Assembly: GCF_013266755.1 (NCBI RefSeq)
Contig: NZ_JABRWJ010000011.1
Span: 62,001 to 126,000 of the forward strand
Reading direction: 5' to 3'
DNA length: 64,000 nt
Origin: Pseudaquabacterium terrae
Lineage (GTDB): Bacteria > Pseudomonadota > Gammaproteobacteria > Burkholderiales > Burkholderiaceae_C
Under the pieces are notes generated by a model that saw only the letters and a program-made list of their open reading frames with translations, ran no database searches and was not told where the DNA came from. Position numbers and translations under genes: made by a program. Positions 6,379-46,865 of the stretch are shown in pieces. How positions within the stretch are numbered: the stretch's first letter is position 1; the number at the start of each line of letters is the position of its first letter.

Positions 6379-7047
6379 ATGGCGAACACCATTCCCTGGA
6401 CTCTGTCCCACACTCAGATCGCCGTCGAAGTGGTCGCCACGATCGCTTTTGCCCTGTCTGGCGTGATCGAGGGGGCACGCAAGCGACTGGATGCCGTGGG
6501 CATCTGCGTGGTGGCCGGGCTGGCCGCGTTCGGAGGCGGAACCGTGCGCGACATCCTGCTCGATCGTCGTCCGCTGTTCTGGGTGCAGCATGCGGATTGG
6601 GTCTGGGCGCTGCTGGCCTTGTGCATCGGCGCGATGTTGTTCATGCGTGCGCGCCACCTCGAGCCGACCGAACGTGCCATGCAGTGGCCCGATGCGCTGG
6701 GCCTCGGCCTTTTCACGGCCCTTGGCACGCAGATCGCCATCGACGCGGGCATGCCGTCGATCATCGCGGTGATCCTGGGCATGGTCACCGCGGTCTTCGG
6801 CGGCGTGCTGCGCGACGTGGTCTGCAACGAGATCCCGCGCGCGTTCAGCGACCATCGGCCTTACGCCATCTGCTCGTTCGTCGGCGGCTGGGTCATGGTG
6901 CTGGCGCACGCGGCAGACATGCCCCAGTGGGGCGCCCTGGTGGCCGCGGCCGCCACCGCGACCGCACTGCGCGCCGCATCCGTGGCAATGGACTGGCGCC
7001 TGCCTGCCTGGCGGGCCGGCGGGACGGGCAGTGATGATGTGCCCTGA
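6379..7047 (+). CDS. TRIC-type cation channel family protein (UPF0126/YadS)
   Basis: A 222-residue inner-membrane protein with about seven hydrophobic helices and the two glycine-rich repeats of the family: FGGGTVRDILL near residue 55 and FGGVLRDVV near 140. Bacterial members of this family form trimeric potassium-permeable channels related to animal TRIC proteins. The start at 6379 (MANTIPWTLSHTQ) is supported by an upstream caggag. The 3' end overlaps, on the opposite strand, the tail of the universal stress gene at 6861-8009. No operon partner is evident. Confidence 0.9.
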   Translation: MANTIPWTLSHTQIAVEVVATIAFALSGVIEGARKRLDAVGICVVAGLAAFGGGTVRDILLDRRPLFWVQHADWVWALLALCIGAMLFMRARHLEPTERAMQWPDALGLGLFTALGTQIAIDAGMPSIIAVILGMVTAVFGGVLRDVVCNEIPRAFSDHRPYAICSFVGGWVMVLAHAADMPQWGALVAAAATATALRAASVAMDWRLPAWRAGGTGSDDVP

Positions 7048-8009
7048 CCCCGCAAGCATGGGTGCAATTCATGCCGCCCTTCAACTGCAGTCATGGACTT
7101 CCCTTCTGCATTCGCTGAACTCGATCCGCTGGGCGAGCGTGATGTCTTGGGAACGACCAGCAGATCCGTGTCCGCCTCGGACAACAGGCGCTGAGCCGTG
7201 CTGCCCAGCAGGAGGTCTCCGAGCAACGACCGACCGGACTTGCCGACGACGATCAGATCGGCAGCGGCTTCGCGGCTCTTCTGCAGCGTCAGCACCGCAG
7301 GCAGGCCCTCTGCCACAGTCGTGTGAGTTCGGCGTGCCGGGAGAGTCGCCGCCAAGTGCCAGAGGCGATGCTGGCTGACCGTTTTCGCCCGTTGAACGGT
7401 GGAACGCACCAACTCGTCCGAACAGTCGGCCATGCGCAGCCGGCTCGCCATCGGAACGGACAATGCGTGCAGCAAATGCAAGGATGCCTGCGGCGCGACG
7501 CGGGCCGCCCATCCGACGGCCGGGAAGGTGGCGTCAGCCAAGTCGACAGGCAGCAGTGCGCGTCTATAGGGCGCAGATGGCAGTGACGGCGGACGCTTCA
7601 CGACAAGCACCGGCCGGCGCGAGAGGCGCACCAGGCGCTCGGTCGTGGTTCCAAACAGAAGCGAGCGCAGCGAGCAGTCGGACCCACCGCCGAGCACCAC
7701 CAGGTCCGCGTCGTCTGCCGCACGCAGGATCTGCTCGATGGCATCGACCTCCCGTGGCACTGCGATCCAGCGCACTTCGTGACCGGCGCGCAGCTCGCGA
7801 CCCAGCCGATTCAGCATCCGGCGGACACGCCGCTCAGCCAGATGCGCGTCGTAGAGTGAGCGACGGGCACCGCACGACTTGCCGGGCCCGGCGGTCAGAA
7901 TGGTCAGGCGGGCCTCGTTCTCGGCGGCAAGAAGGACCGCGCGCTGAAGTGCAGGCAATGCGGCTTCGGTGAGGTCGGTGACATGAAGAATCGAATTGAT
8001 GCTAGCCAT
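6861..8009 (-). CDS. Tandem universal stress protein with extended tail
   Basis: Two UspA domains span about residues 1-145 and 150-287. The second carries the canonical ATP-binding pattern GKSGRSLLGDLLLGST; the first has GGGSDCSLRSLLFGTTTE. The start at 8009 (MASINSILHVTDL) has GGGAGAG upstream. The recognisable protein ends near VVPKTSRS, about nucleotide 7140, but no stop occurs until 6861. The resulting extra 95 residues are low complexity and read antisense through 187 bases of the TRIC gene, so the tail is probably not a real domain. The Rnk-like gene lies 12 bases upstream on the same strand, suggesting co-expression. Confidence 0.85.
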   Translation of the reverse strand: MASINSILHVTDLTEAALPALQRAVLLAAENEARLTILTAGPGKSCGARRSLYDAHLAERRVRRMLNRLGRELRAGHEVRWIAVPREVDAIEQILRAADDADLVVLGGGSDCSLRSLLFGTTTERLVRLSRRPVLVVKRPPSLPSAPYRRALLPVDLADATFPAVGWAARVAPQASLHLLHALSVPMASRLRMADCSDELVRSTVQRAKTVSQHRLWHLAATLPARRTHTTVAEGLPAVLTLQKSREAAADLIVVGKSGRSLLGDLLLGSTAQRLLSEADTDLLVVPKTSRSPSGSSSANAEGKSMTAVEGRHELHPCLRGQGTSSLPVPPARQAGRRQSIATDAARSAVAVAAAATRAPHWGMSAACASTMTQPPTNEQMA

Positions 8010-8021
8010 GGTGCTCTCCCG

Positions 8022-8444
8022 CTACAGCACGAAGTCGCCGCTGGCTTCAGGCTGGAAGAGGATGGCCGATACGCGAGCCTGCACCTCGTCTCCTGCAGGC
8101 GTCTGCCAGACTGCCAGCGAACCGACGCGTAGGCCCAGCAAGGCGGAACCCACTGGCGACAGCACGGAGACGAACCCTGCCGCCGGTTCAGCGTCTTCGG
8201 GGTAGCACGGCGTCAGCACCTGGTGTTGGTTCTTGGTGGATTCGACCAATAGGACGCGCGAATACATGGTCACCACGTCCGGTGGGATCGCGCGCGAAGG
8301 CGCCAGGTCGGCGTTGTCCAGCGCCGCGCGCAGCGCGGCGCTCGTGGCTTGGCCCGGGCCGGCAGGGGTGCCGGCAAGCAGTCGCTTCAGGCGAGCGTGG
8401 TCGAGGTCCGTGAGCGTGCGCTCGGTGAGTAGCAACGTGTCCAT
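8022..8444 (-). CDS. rnk: Rnk-like nucleoside diphosphate kinase regulator (GreA/GreB family), copy 1
   Basis: A 140-residue protein matching Rnk in length and motifs: DVVTMYSRVLL near residue 60, SPVGSALLGLRVG near 95, and the C-terminal LFQPEASGDFVL. Rnk binds RNA polymerase through a GreA/GreB-type C-terminal domain; E. coli Rnk affects nucleotide pools. The start at 8444 (MDTLLLTERTLTDLDHARLKRL) is supported by an AAGGAC site. It precedes the universal stress gene by 12 bases. A conserved inverted-repeat leader lies upstream at 8496-8544, shared with the two other Rnk-like genes in this window. Confidence 0.88.
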   Translation of the reverse strand: MDTLLLTERTLTDLDHARLKRLLAGTPAGPGQATSAALRAALDNADLAPSRAIPPDVVTMYSRVLLVESTKNQHQVLTPCYPEDAEPAAGFVSVLSPVGSALLGLRVGSLAVWQTPAGDEVQARVSAILFQPEASGDFVL

Positions 8445-8495
8445 CGTGCAGTCCTTTCGGTCGCGAGGGCGACCATTGATCAGCGCGGGCAGTGG

Positions 8496-8544
8496 GCCCG
8501 GCGATCGAAGGTGTGCGCGAGAAGGGACAGTCGAATCGCCGGGC
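8496..8544 (-). promoter_or_regulatory. Conserved inverted-repeat leader of Rnk-like copy 1
   Basis: Perfect 10-base arms GCCCGGCGAT (8496-8505) and ATCGCCGGGC (8535-8544) enclose 29 bases that contain a conserved GCGCACACCTT in the gene direction. The gene-proximal arm is 51 bases from the start codon at 8444. The same arms and internal motif occur upstream of the Rnk-like genes at 15818 and 23860. It could be an operator or a structured leader RNA. Confidence 0.7.
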
Positions 8545-8773
8545 TCAGGAAAGTGCGGTCTGCAGCCCGAAGGGCTCGCCGACCGCCACACCAGACCGGA
8601 CGCGCGCGATCCCCGCTAGCGTGGGACGTGCGCACCCCAGCGCAATGCGCGGAGCGGCATGGCGATGGTTGGGGCGAAGGTGGAAGGACACATGCGCATC
8701 GTAGCGGTTGCGCACCGGACGCTGAAGAGACGCGTCCAGTAGCCATGCACCCATTGCCGACTCTCGCGACGAA

Positions 8774-15340: not shown

Positions 15341-15702
15341 GATGTTTCGGATTTATCGGTACGAATCAAGTTTACTCGACAAATACGAAACAGCTGGATT
15401 GGAGGCTCATTCGTCGGTGATCCCGCACCAGGGTCGCGCGATGATCATGGTTTCAGCTCGACGTGGAGCGCACCCATGCCGCGCGATTTCGCGTTTGCCG
15501 GAAATCGGCAATTGAAGCAAGGTCTATGGAGCGACTTCCCGGAATGAATGTTGAACAGGGCTACCATGGCTCGCATGAGTCTCCATGTCATGAGGTCGAC
15601 AGCGGCGGTCGCCGCGTCGTGCTACGGCACGACGGGTTGGTCCCCGCAGGCGTCGTCCTCTTGGCTACGACGCCGACTCATTCAGCCTGCTACACATTCC
15701 TG
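15341..15702. other. Intergenic stretch, no gene seen
   Basis: About 360 bases between the excisionase-type gene and the Rnk-like leader. The first 60 bases are AT-richer (ttatcggtacgaatcaag region) and probably hold the promoter of the minus-strand gene at 15340. Beyond that I find only short open frames without family motifs or ribosome binding sites. Confidence 0.5.
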
Positions 15703-15753
15703 AGCCCGGCGATCCACCTCCGCTTCTTCGCGCAAACTTTCGATCACCGGGCT
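15703..15753 (+). promoter_or_regulatory. Conserved inverted-repeat leader of Rnk-like copy 2
   Basis: AGCCCGGCGATC (15703-15714) and GATCACCGGGCT (15742-15753) form 12-base arms with one mismatch around 27 bases that include GCGCAAACTTTC. The gene-proximal arm is 64 bases from the start codon at 15818. The element matches those at 8496-8544 and 23929-23977 in arms, spacing and internal motif. Confidence 0.7.
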
Positions 15754-15817
15754 CCTCGCTCAGCGCTGCGGCGCACTCGCATCCGCGAGTGACCTTCGCC
15801 TTCGACGGGACTGCTCG

Positions 15818-16231
15818 ATGCAATTCGCGACACACGATGAGCGCACGCTCACGGAACTGGATCATGTTCGCCTGGAAAGGCTCATTCGCGATCCAGCTCA
15901 TGCTTCGCAAACCTTGTCAATCAGCGCGGCTCTTGATTCCGCCGAGCGGGTACCAAGCCAAAAGGTCCAACCCGGCGTGGTGACCATGTGCTCGCAGATC
16001 CTGCTGGCCGATCTGGACAGCCGCGCGACCTTCGCACTGACGCTTTGCTATCCGCCAGAGGCAAACGCGAGCGCCGGCTTCGTTTCCGTGCTGTCACCGC
16101 TTGGCGCCAGCTTGATCGGTCTGCGAATTGGCGACATCGCTCGCTGGCGCACTCCTCACGGTCAAACGGGAGCGGCAGTAGTGGCAGCAGTGCTCTTTCA
16201 GCCGGAAGCCAGCGGCCTGTACACGCTCTAA
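15818..16231 (+). CDS. rnk: Rnk-like nucleoside diphosphate kinase regulator, copy 2
   Basis: A 137-residue Rnk-like protein: ERTLTELDHVRLERL at residues 8-22, GVVTMCSQILLADL near 55, SPLGASLIGLRIGD near 93, and LFQPEASGLYTL at the C-terminus. It shares the QPEASG ending and the GLRxG core with the two other copies but is clearly diverged from them, so these are old paralogues, not recent duplicates. It is on the plus strand and is followed after 45 bases by a histidine kinase gene, with which it may be co-transcribed. Confidence 0.88.
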   Translation: MQFATHDERTLTELDHVRLERLIRDPAHASQTLSISAALDSAERVPSQKVQPGVVTMCSQILLADLDSRATFALTLCYPPEANASAGFVSVLSPLGASLIGLRIGDIARWRTPHGQTGAAVVAAVLFQPEASGLYTL

Positions 16232-23437: not shown

Positions 23438-23860
23438 CTACATCGAGTAGTCGCCGCTTGCCTCCGGCTGGAAGAGGATGGCCAGGATCTCGGCCACTCT
23501 CTCATCCCCCGCCGGGGTCAGCCAGCGCGCCACACACCCGACGCGCAGACCGAGCAGGCTCCATCCCACCGGCGACAGGACGGAGACGAACCCTGCGCCA
23601 GGTTCTGCATCCGCCGGATAGCACAACGTCAGCTGGCTGCGCTGGCCGGTCGCAGGGTCCACCAGCAGGACCTGCGAGTACATCGTCACCACGTCAGGCG
23701 ACACCTGGCGCGAAGGCACGATGGCGGCTGCGTCGAGGTCGTCCCCGATGTGCAGAGCGCGTGAGGAAAACGATCCGTCGCGGCTATCGCGATGGACGAG
23801 ATTCGTCAGTCGGACGTGGTCCAGTTCCGTGAGCGTACGCTCGAGCGCCAAGACTTCCAT
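23438..23860 (-). CDS. rnk: Rnk-like nucleoside diphosphate kinase regulator, copy 3
   Basis: A 140-residue Rnk-like protein: ERTLTELDHVRLTNLVH near the N-terminus, DVVTMYSQVLLVDP near residue 62, SPVGWSLLGLRVG near 97, and LFQPEASGDYSM at the end. The ATG at 23860 gives MEVLALERTLTELDH; an upstream in-frame codon at 23914 would add 18 unrelated residues. It precedes the universal stress/aconitase set on the same strand and carries the best-formed copy of the conserved leader at 23929-23977. Confidence 0.88.
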   Translation of the reverse strand: MEVLALERTLTELDHVRLTNLVHRDSRDGSFSSRALHIGDDLDAAAIVPSRQVSPDVVTMYSQVLLVDPATGQRSQLTLCYPADAEPGAGFVSVLSPVGWSLLGLRVGCVARWLTPAGDERVAEILAILFQPEASGDYSM

Positions 23861-23928
23861 GGGGCACACCTTCAGATGTCGGGTGCTTGTCTGCGGCCTG
23901 CAGACCCACACCATCGCGCGGGCTTGGG

Positions 23929-23977
23929 GCCCGGCGATCTGAGGTTTGCGCAGTAGGGGTGGAAGTGATCGCCGGGC
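23929..23977 (-). promoter_or_regulatory. Conserved inverted-repeat leader of Rnk-like copy 3
   Basis: Perfect 11-base arms GCCCGGCGATC (23929-23939) and GATCGCCGGGC (23967-23977) flank 27 bases holding TGCGCAAACCTC in the gene direction. The proximal arm lies 68 bases from the start codon at 23860. Matches the elements at 8496-8544 and 15703-15753; the CACATCTCTGAG just outside the distal arm is also partly shared. Confidence 0.72.
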
Positions 23978-24203
23978 TCAGAGATGTGCGGCCGGCAGAC
24001 GGGGTGGATTCCCCGTCCCGGCCGACAAGCCAGGCGCACGCGAGCAGCCAGCTGCCGTGGAGGCAACTTGGCAGGGCGCGCCGCGATGCACGGCAGTGGA
24101 GGGGATGATGCACATGGGGCCGACCATATCGGCGTTGTCGAAATAGGGCAAGCAACCGCCGACAATTCCGCACCCCGTGTGAGCGTATCGCTGCGCTCGC
24201 GCA

Positions 24204-44941: not shown

Positions 44942-45640
44942 TCAGATCATCGGCTGCCAGGCGACGCCTGGCATGCGATCGTCCTCGACGCCGCGCACTC
45001 CGGGCACGTTCTCCGCCGCGACGCGTGCAGCCTGTCGCTCAGCGTCGCTGCGAGTCAGGCCGCGGTAGTGCACGACGCCATCGCGCACGTCCAGCGCCGA
45101 CCAGTCGGGCCGCCACCAGCGCTGCCGCTCCAGTTCGCGCAACAGTCCAACCCGGATCGCCTCGTCGCTCTGCGCACGCGGCGCTTCGAGATCACGCATT
45201 GCCAGCGCAAGCGCCCGGATCAGATCGGCGCGGGTCACGATGCCGACCAACTGCCTGTCGCGCAGCACCGGGATGCGCCTGATGTGGCGCGCCTCAAAGA
45301 TCGAGGCGATGTGCCTGGCCGGTGCGTCCTCCGTCACCGAGGCCACCTGCCGGCTCATGATGTCCTTCGCCTTGCGCGCATGCGACTTCACGTAGTCGGC
45401 GGCGATCTGGTCGCGCTCGATGAATCGCGCCCACCACGAGCGCTCGCGTGTGTCGCTGTCGGTGCCGATCTCGTGCCTGCGCAGGAGGTCGCCTTCGTTG
45501 ACCATGCCGACAACCTCGCCGCCGGCGACCACCGGGACGCCGCTGATGCGCCGCTCGAGCAGCAGCTCGGCGATCTCGTGCACCGGGGTGTCCGGCGTGA
45601 TCGTGACGACGGGTGCTGTCATGATGTCTTTCGAGTTCAT
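44942..45640 (-). CDS. CBS-CBS-BON domain protein, copy 1
   Basis: A 232-residue protein: CBS 1 (DIMTAPVVTITPDTPVHEIA to GMVNEGDLLRR), CBS 2 (DIMSRQVASVTEDAPARHIA to GIVTRADLIRAL), then a BON domain (VHYRGLTRSDAERQAARVAA to VPGVRGVEDD). Likely an adenylate-sensing stress protein. AGGAG precedes the ATG at 45640. It is a tandem paralogue of the gene at 45714, and both share the AGGAGTTGA ribosome-site context, so the upstream signal was duplicated with the gene. Confidence 0.92.
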   Translation of the reverse strand: MNSKDIMTAPVVTITPDTPVHEIAELLLERRISGVPVVAGGEVVGMVNEGDLLRRHEIGTDSDTRERSWWARFIERDQIAADYVKSHARKAKDIMSRQVASVTEDAPARHIASIFEARHIRRIPVLRDRQLVGIVTRADLIRALALAMRDLEAPRAQSDEAIRVGLLRELERQRWWRPDWSALDVRDGVVHYRGLTRSDAERQAARVAAENVPGVRGVEDDRMPGVAWQPMI

Positions 45641-45713
45641 CGCTCAACTCCTGGGTTGCACGAGGTGTTCGGGTAAGGCTCGGTCGCGCGAGGACCTCGC
45701 GCACCGCGAAGAC

Positions 45714-46412
45714 TCAATACATCGACTGCCAAGCGCCCCACAGCGTGCGGGTGTCTTCGACGCCACGCACGCCGGGCACGTTTTCCGCCGCGACGCGTGC
45801 CGCCTGCTGCTCGTCCTCGTTTTCGATCAGACCCTGGTAGTGAACAACGCCTTCGCGCACGAACGCCGTCGACTGGCTGGGCCGCCACCAAGGCTGCCCC
45901 ACCAGTTCCGCGAGCAGGCGCAAGCGGATCGCCTCGTCGCTCTGCACGCGAGGCGACGGCTTTGCCTGTGACGTCAGGGCCAGCGCCTGGACCAGGTTGG
46001 CTCGAGTGACGATGCCGACCAGTTCTTGCCCGCGCAAGACGACGACGCGCCGGACGGAACGCGCGGCGAAGATCGACGCGACCTTCTGCACGGGTGTGTC
46101 TTCGGTCACCGTGATCACCTGCCGGGTCATGAAGTCCTTCGCTTGCCGCGCGTGCGACTTGACGTACTCGATCGGCCGTGGATCGCGCTCGATGAGTTGC
46201 GTCCACCACGACCTCTCCGGCGCGCTGCTTTCGGTGCCGATTTCGTGGCGCCGCAGTAGCTCGAACTCGTTGACCAGCCCGACCACGCGGCCGTTCTCGA
46301 CCACCGGCACGCCGCTGATGTGGTGCTTGAGCAGCAGGGCCGCGATCTCGTGCACCGGCGTATCGAGGGTGATGGTGACGACGGGCGCCGTCATGATGTC
46401 ACTGACCTTCAT
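45714..46412 (-). CDS. CBS-CBS-BON domain protein, copy 2
   Basis: A 232-residue paralogue of the preceding protein, same length and architecture: CBS 1 (DIMTAPVVTITLDTPVHEIA to GLVNEFELLRR), CBS 2 (DFMTRQVITVTEDTPVQKVA to GIVTRANLVQAL), BON (VHYQGLIENEDEQQAARVAA to VPGVRGVEDT). The linkers ERSWWTQLIERD and QSDEAIRLRLLAEL are also shared. GAGGAG precedes the ATG at 46412. It follows the DUF488 gene by only three bases, suggesting one transcript from acs downwards. Confidence 0.92.
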   Translation of the reverse strand: MKVSDIMTAPVVTITLDTPVHEIAALLLKHHISGVPVVENGRVVGLVNEFELLRRHEIGTESSAPERSWWTQLIERDPRPIEYVKSHARQAKDFMTRQVITVTEDTPVQKVASIFAARSVRRVVVLRGQELVGIVTRANLVQALALTSQAKPSPRVQSDEAIRLRLLAELVGQPWWRPSQSTAFVREGVVHYQGLIENEDEQQAARVAAENVPGVRGVEDTRTLWGAWQSMY

Positions 46413-46415
46413 GGT

Positions 46416-46865
46416 TCAACTCCTCTGGATTCGTGGGTCGGAAAAGCGCCGCTCGCTGAGCACCTGGTGCGGAACGACGGCCTGGTTGTGCTGTGCATCG
46501 CTGGCGTGGTAGAGCAGCGTCAGCCGACCACTGCGCCGCAGATCGTCGAGCAAGCGCAGAAGGTCGGGCCGCTGTTCGAGCTCGGTGCGGTACTTCTGGA
46601 CGAAGACCGCCCAGCGACTCGGCTCATGGGCGTACCAGCGCCGCAGCGCGTCGCTGGGCGCCACGTCGCGCAGCCACAGGTCGGCCGCCACCTGCTCCTT
46701 GGTCAGGCCGCGCGGCCAGAGCCGGTCGACGAGGACACGCATGCCATCGTCGATCGAAGCGGCTTCTCGAGCGCGTTTCACGGCTACCGCGTGGCGCGTC
46801 CCGCCCGCGGCCATTCGCTTTGCAGCGCCGGGACCTGCAAGCGGTTCGGTGTTTGGCCTTTGCAT
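46416..46865 (-). CDS. DUF488 family protein (YeaO type)
   Basis: A 149-residue protein with the YeaO/DUF488 signature: GMRVLVDRLWPRGLTKEQV, LWLRDVAPSDALRRWYAHEP, FVQKYRTELEQRPDLL and TLLYHASDAQHNQAV. The function is unknown. The ATG at 46865 lacks a clear ribosome site; MAAGGTRHAV at 46814 is the alternative and would give a normal-length protein of 132 residues. It lies 14 bases downstream of the acs stop. Confidence 0.83.
   Translation of the reverse strand: MQRPNTEPLAGPGAAKRMAAGGTRHAVAVKRAREAASIDDGMRVLVDRLWPRGLTKEQVAADLWLRDVAPSDALRRWYAHEPSRWAVFVQKYRTELEQRPDLLRLLDDLRRSGRLTLLYHASDAQHNQAVVPHQVLSERRFSDPRIQRS

Follow-up and report, generated by a model that had tools for sequence, protein, structure and literature searches.

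RNA thermometers such as ROSE and fourU cover the ribosome-binding site (RBS). Like them, the element described here has a short run of pyrimidines (UUCCU) that faces AGGA in a stress-gene leader; unlike theirs, this strip precedes a GC-rich hairpin and is separated from the RBS by about 100 bases, instead of lying with it in one local hairpin. Leaders in front of rnk are known from Enterobacteria, Pseudomonas and Yersinia, and a 2010 study describes these rnk-leaders as attenuators with an antiterminator structure (PMC2965389). Our element is likewise a structured leader before rnk, but the three leaders in our window show no terminator, and usp, bactofilin-like and GNAT-like genes are preceded by the element as well. 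Burkholderiales-1, a candidate RNA from the same order, appears in a table of a second 2010 study with no Rfam accession given (PMC2864571); it may be identical to our element. Rfam 15 gave no match at gathering score in the window or in 16 element-bearing loci, and at a lax threshold copy 3 of the element gave five matches, each far below gathering score. The element was described nowhere in the open-access literature that we searched. Since there is neither a terminator in the three window leaders nor an Rfam match, we filed the element under no named family but as what looks like a new cis-acting leader RNA family.

The window (the whole stretch of 64,000 nucleotides that was analysed) carries three inverted repeats at 8496-8544, 15703-15753 and 23929-23977, exactly where the first-pass annotation had placed them, and an Rnk-like gene follows each one (Pfam PF01272, 58-63 bits). 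With 13-base arms, the distances from the end of the stem to the start codon are 49, 63 and 66 bases, in agreement with the 51-68 bases given earlier. The three Rnk-like proteins are 50-60% identical. Their best NCBIfam model is "nucleoside diphosphate kinase regulator", at 91-102 bits under a cut-off of 109. The window has a single instance of the perfect 11/11 arm pattern, and 100 dinucleotide shuffles have none; the inner end of the copy 1 stem is a T.G pair, and the copy 2 stem contains one C.A mismatch. The element exceeds the reported repeat, with a covariance-model match of 95-96 bases per window copy, and the three leaders fold better than their shuffles (z of -2.3, -2.5 and -2.8). Elsewhere in the window, positions 44948-46424 hold a sequence duplicated in tandem at 772-base spacing, its copies being 74-81% identical.

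Copy 3 is the best match (23901-23995, minus strand; 92.1 bits, E = 2.9e-16) and forms the leader of the rnk-like gene at 23438-23860 on the same strand (PF01272, 62.7 bits). Its 5' strip, CCGCACAUCUCU, occupies 23980-23991 and is paired in the minimum free energy (MFE) fold: GCACAUCU of the strip is complementary to AGGUGUGC of the gene's own RBS over 8 bp, one of them U.G. Sequence and model match place stem arm A (GAGCCCGGCGAUC) at 23967-23979 and arm B (GAUCGCCGGGCCC) at 23927-23939, and between them lies a C/U-rich loop with GCGCAAAC (23940-23966). Further on come the conserved downstream box GCCCGCGCGAUGG, an imperfect copy of arm A that we call A' (23911-23923), a predicted local hairpin between box and RBS (GUCUGC-AGGCC-GCAGAC, 23889-23905), weakly supported as a class, and the RBS itself, GAAGGUGUGC, read from sequence and fold (23864-23873).

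Copy 1 (8468-8562, minus strand; 73.0 bits, E = 1.6e-12) leads the rnk-like gene at 8022-8444 on that strand, behind which, again on the same strand, lies a tandem Usp gene (within 6861-8009). Its strip (CCGCACUUUCCU, 8547-8558) pairs with the RBS in short pieces in the MFE fold, its arms A and B read from the sequence at 8534-8546 and 8494-8506, and a local hairpin is predicted before the RBS (GGUCGC-CCUC-GCGACC, 8459-8474). Copy 2 (15686-15781, plus strand; 70.7 bits, E = 4.5e-12) leads the gene at 15818-16231 on the plus strand (PF01272, 58.5 bits); its strip (CUACACAUUCCU, 15690-15701) is unpaired in the MFE fold of the leader, which has no strip-RBS pairing, arm A (15702-15714) is read from the sequence and the mismatched arm B (15742-15754) also from the model match, and the fold places a local hairpin at 15774-15791 (CACUCGC-AUCC-GCGAGUG). 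Local hairpins between box and RBS are thus present in all three window leaders.

For the family as a whole, the order of parts is a conserved 5' strip (GGCCGCACAUUCCU), an 11-bp stem, a C/U-rich and G-poor loop with GCGCA, and then the box CCCGCGCG. In gene orientation the strip reads [C]CGGCCGCA[C/G][A/U]U[U/C]CCU, and the arms read GCCCGGCGAUC (A) and GAUCGCCGGGC (B). The GCGC of the loop mostly stands 5-9 bases before arm B, and that of the box mostly 5-10 bases behind it. Our larger collection began with 185 elements, from which 24 rows and one duplicate were removed to leave 160; eight true elements were later restored for a set of 168. Because the 160 were filtered both on the loop (at least 60% pyrimidines) and on the strip, loop and strip features are quoted from alignment A2, whose 46 leaders remained after 11 of 57 rows (8 poor matches and 3 near-duplicates) had been removed before alignment, and on which the covariance model R1 was built. 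Strip positions G-10, C-9, A-8 and U-1, conserved at 95-99% in the strip-filtered 160, are invariant or nearly so in these 46 rows, which were unfiltered on the strip. In the same rows, selected on neither composition nor strip, the loop before GCGC is 51% C, 34% U, 11% A and 5% G; the upstream DNA of the larger element set has 33% G.

Covariation of the arms, which the first-pass annotation had named as a check, was found: stem pairs change between A-U and G-C, between U-A and C-G, and from G-C to A-U and C-G. Over the stem and the GCGC/GCGC pairs the covariation score was 0.119 as against 0.075 in shuffled alignments (0 of 500 shuffles as high), and sliding the partners by 1-3 columns left 23-40% of the cells paired, compared with 89% in register. 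Both sides have changed in 6 of the 13 stem pairs. On the rnk tree these changes come down to few independent events: the most variable position of the arms changes 8-10 times, and supported independent pairs are too few for a sign test. Comparing elements within genomes at stem positions 2-11, in pairs that are not independent, we counted 22 two-sided changes that keep Watson-Crick pairing, 17 one-sided changes confined to standard or G.U pairs, and 19 changes in which a mismatch is involved. The hairpin is stable, at a mean of -23.6 kcal/mol in 165 elements. One-sided changes gave G.U and A.C at 28:21 in the first set of 185, at 18:5 in the 160 (positions 2-10) and at 22:17 in the 168 (positions 2-11), the last becoming 19:6 without the loop-proximal pair. 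The excess of G.U over A.C is a mild bias at most, and we do not rest the case for an RNA on it.

A profile scan of related genomes placed the element before a definite set of genes and not at random intergenic positions. A dispersed repeat of the REP or MITE kind, the outcome that would have undone the original proposal, is refuted by the genome itself, whose four strong copies each stand before rnk. The fourth of them precedes a further rnk gene, with a protein 86% identical to the Rnk of copy 1; R1 gave these four matches at 70-92 bits, the next best scoring 23.6. Among 150 genomes of the family, a search for Rnk gave 70 matches in 57 genomes. The element is present at 48 of these 70 loci, one well-scoring gene (L026) has the strip with a degenerate stem, and the 21 loci at which it is absent are all relatives of at most 93.3 bits, element-bearing Rnk starting at 107 bits. 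When R1 was run on 200 genomes of the family, with the best 20 candidates per genome scored, it matched 82 times in 59 genomes: 64 matches were before rnk, 9 before usp, 6 before bactofilin-like genes and 1 before a GNAT-like gene, 80 in these classes altogether. Rnk loci already known accounted for 47 of them, and the other 35 stood before 17 rnk, 9 tandem Usp, 6 bactofilin-like and 1 GNAT-like gene, with 2 left unassigned. The placement before rnk genes that had been proposed therefore stands, but not as an exclusive one, as usp, bactofilin-like and GNAT-like genes are preceded too.

Beyond the family, R1 matched in 9 of 300 genomes of the order, 5 of them from families other than that of the window, and in 274 genomes of the class it matched only in the genome itself and in one of the same family. 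A pattern scan of named records, which demanded GCGC in the loop, returned at least 116 stretches. Among the matches listed, 89 of 116 lie in records that NCBI assigns to Burkholderiales, with the genera Variovorax, Acidovorax, Hydrogenophaga, Ramlibacter, Roseateles and Piscinibacter, as well as Polaromonas, Herbaspirillum, Zeimonas, Quisquiliibacterium and Pigmentiphaga. Seven of the 27 other listed stretches were taken into the element set: four metagenome records without an order, one Thiobacillus metagenome, one contig labelled Micrococcales but probably misbinned, in which the strip is complete, and a chance hit within the set of 160 (L229), which was excluded from the swapped-pseudoknot and loop-length tests. 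A further match (L137, 32 bits), before what looks by eye like a carbon-starvation gene, is probably due to chance. A betaproteobacterial record (L173) has the element before a bactofilin-like gene and failed the set filter.

Two large Variovorax plasmids (L277 and L278) hold partial element matches. On one plasmid the match separates an annotated usp gene from a small gene that has an IS1071 transposase behind it; on the other it lies in a region flanked on either side by transposase genes. At L008 (G012:C59, positions 1-435) an rnk-like frame starts behind the element, near a transposase frame labelled IS256-like from its translation, and this rnk copy appears to have been cut by an insertion.

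The genes behind the element form a coherent set, relative to which its placement and orientation are fixed. We assigned them by tblastn with ten query proteins: for the 160 unique elements the first recognised gene was rnk in 115 cases, bactofilin-like in 17, usp in 15 and GNAT-like in 3, leaving 10 without a class, several of them at contig ends. Behind rnk the next class found was usp in 36 of 115 cases, and behind bactofilin-like genes it was GNAT-like in 11 of 17. An uncharacterised bactofilin/FapA-like protein that starts with MEFTKQFLRAKNPCA or similar recurs after the element (L122, L117, L129 and others), often with a GNAT-like gene next; all matches of the bactofilin-like proteins to Bactofilin or FapA fall short of the Pfam cut-offs, and the protein of L117 has a weak match to YdhT. 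The label GNAT-like is itself a reading of the sequence, the one such protein that was tested (L114) having no Pfam or NCBIfam match. Single elements precede a gene resembling domain V of EF-G and a gene for a fusion of AdoMet decarboxylase and spermidine synthase, and in Ramlibacter monticola four elements lie within a single stretch of 8 kb, where the genes behind them are rnk, usp, bactofilin-like and EF-G-like. At L226 (7344-7934) a free-standing EF-G C-terminal domain protein (PF00679) stands directly behind the element, and by eye the second gene of L113 resembles it. The fusion gene belongs to Ramlibacter cellulosilyticus (L235, 6226-7614), where a second element faces the opposite direction before a bactofilin-like gene.

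In several folds the strip pairs with the Shine-Dalgarno region, and we therefore tested this pairing across the element genes. The motif GGA[AG]UG occurs in 49 of 105 GGA-bearing RBSs of rnk genes (out of 114 such genes directly behind the element) and in 11 of 27 GGA-bearing RBSs of unrelated element genes (out of 33). As controls, it occurs in 1 of 43 GGA-bearing RBSs of second genes in the same operons (out of 57) and in 13 of 404 other ORFs, among which are spurious ones. For the unrelated element genes against the control ORFs this gives p = 1e-8 (Fisher test), a value inflated, like the other p-values, by the relatedness of the genomes. None of 20 Rnk homologues without the element, 14 of them GGA-bearing, has the GGANUGC form. 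A strip-RBS helix of at least 6 bp is found for 62 of 148 element genes (42%), compared with 12% of second-gene RBSs and 14% of control RBSs. The strip is thus complementary to the RBS of the gene that follows, across the class, and this is our strongest functional clue.

What the pairing sets apart is the whole class of element genes; an anti-Shine-Dalgarno strip that is conserved and common to them would account for this but is not thereby proven. In 133 folded leaders the mean number of strip-RBS pairs was 3.41 with the own RBS and 2.51 with a swapped one (p = 0.0005); only 72 of the 133 exceeded their swapped mean, and more than two strip-RBS pairs were found in 58% of own leaders as against 68% of swapped means. 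Pairing of a strip with its own RBS was no better than that of pairs swapped between elements (-8.56 and -8.65 kcal/mol), and covariation between strip and RBS is weak, with a raw p of 0.015 at one position, none at another, and too few independent events on the tree.

That the non-coding element is under selection, as an operator or as a structured leader RNA, had been proposed from the three window copies, and the placement before a gene set and the both-sided stem changes support this. We favour the leader RNA because of the G depletion of the loop on the gene strand, the both-sided changes in the stem and the anti-Shine-Dalgarno strip; a strand-specific depletion of G would be expected if the loop is single-stranded RNA, not if it is a DNA spacer. 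We consider it likely that the element acts as RNA rather than as a DNA operator, and on balance we read it as the conserved core of a structured 5' leader RNA for translational control of stress genes in Burkholderiales, with the gating of translation itself an even bet.

Under the leader-RNA reading, transcription would start upstream of the strip GGCCGCACAUUCCU, which would be followed immediately by the GC-rich 11-bp hairpin, with the large C/U-rich, G-poor loop displaying GCGCA. The hairpin would position the strip so that its CAUUCCU part could fold back onto the AGGA(G/A)UG RBS, typically 50-60 bases behind the stem in rnk genes, and lower translation. Release might come from a factor that binds the loop, whose single-stranded C/U-rich stretch would be its likely contact, or from a condition that melts the short AU- and GU-containing strip-RBS helix, and the genes would then be switched on together. 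Transcription of the element, covering of the RBS by the strip in cells and the direction of regulation are predictions of this model. The set of Usp, Rnk-like and YdhT-like genes presumably points to stress or oxygen limitation as the signal.

The first of the competing explanations, a DNA operator, would make arms A and B the half-sites of a regulator and the strip a part of the promoter, with CACATT as the -10 and transcription beginning where the stem begins, at its first base; a putative promoter of this kind may leave the strip outside the RNA. The very strong sequence conservation of the arms and the A/T bases at strip positions A-8, T-5 and T-1 amid a GC-rich background agree with this, and half-sites too would show symmetric covariation. 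Against it, 167 loop lengths span 19-61 bases (24-38 from the 5th to the 95th percentile) with little helical concentration: at a period of 10.5 we obtained R = 0.19 (1 being a fixed phase), compared with a mean of 0.07 and a largest value of 0.21 in the jittered null. As a slight concentration does exist, we use phase only against a fixed-phase operator. The depletion of G is confined to one strand, no clearly conserved -35 or activator block appears upstream of -22 (there are weak signals near -34 to -38), the three window leaders lack a sigma-70 consensus promoter, and the strip-complementary RBS common to unrelated genes would be left unexplained. We regard an operator as unlikely.

A bolder version of the leader-RNA reading, which we also think unlikely, is a new class of switch RNA that would sense a signal, possibly the energy state or a limitation of oxygen, and couple a stress regulon translationally across Burkholderiales by toggling between two states. 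State one would combine the main stem with pairing of the loop GCGC to the box GCGC; in state two, arm B would pair with the downstream A' and the strip would cover the RBS. The pairing in state one would be an H-type pseudoknot, attractive through the conservation of both sites and a possibility only: GCGC is present at both in 140 of 160 elements, many of them chosen for GCGC in the loop, the pairing is no better within elements than between swapped ones, and A2 has one both-sided change, with a few variants that look compensated (L129, L055 and L053). As for state two, 86 elements have a GCGCG box, and the base after it varies with arm B (with T in arm B, A in 39 and G in 5; with C, G in 19 and A in 4); strong by count, this correlation reflects about three arm B changes when mapped on the rnk tree (50 rows). 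The hairpin between arm B and the box is not established: its own box makes it no more stable than swapped boxes do (p = 0.12; p = 0.03 against shuffled boxes), and it is weaker than the main stem in all 165 elements. The box-to-RBS hairpin has weak support across the class, its mean z of -1.01 (156 leaders) indicating only slightly greater stability than the -0.71 of 160 upstream DNA stretches. We saw no excess of base pairs between the strip and either the loop or the sequence downstream of the stem.

Somewhat less probable still is that the element serves as a 5' stabiliser, or as a landing site for a protein or sRNA at the C/U-rich loop, with the strip-RBS pairing having no role. The stability of the hairpin (mean -23.6 kcal/mol) and the strongly pyrimidine-rich loop would suit such a function; the strip and the shared RBS motif would have no explanation, and we hold it to be doubtful. 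Attenuation of transcription, whether as in the rnk-leaders of Enterobacteria and Pseudomonas or by Rho acting at the C-rich loop, is improbable. The genes greA/rnk rank high among attenuated gene families (PMC2965389), and the loop is C-rich and G-poor. Yet a terminator-like hairpin with a T run is found in none of the three window leaders, and the C-rich stretch, averaging 18 bases, is short for a Rho site.

If the reading as a translational leader RNA is true, this RNA links Rnk, Usp and bactofilin-like proteins in one post-transcriptional regulon, which would be present in many environmental Burkholderiales, including Variovorax, Acidovorax, Hydrogenophaga, Ramlibacter, Roseateles and Piscinibacter. 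The element provides a sequence handle with which further members of the regulon may be found, and the pairing of strip and RBS offers a simple, testable model for genes whose control is little understood.
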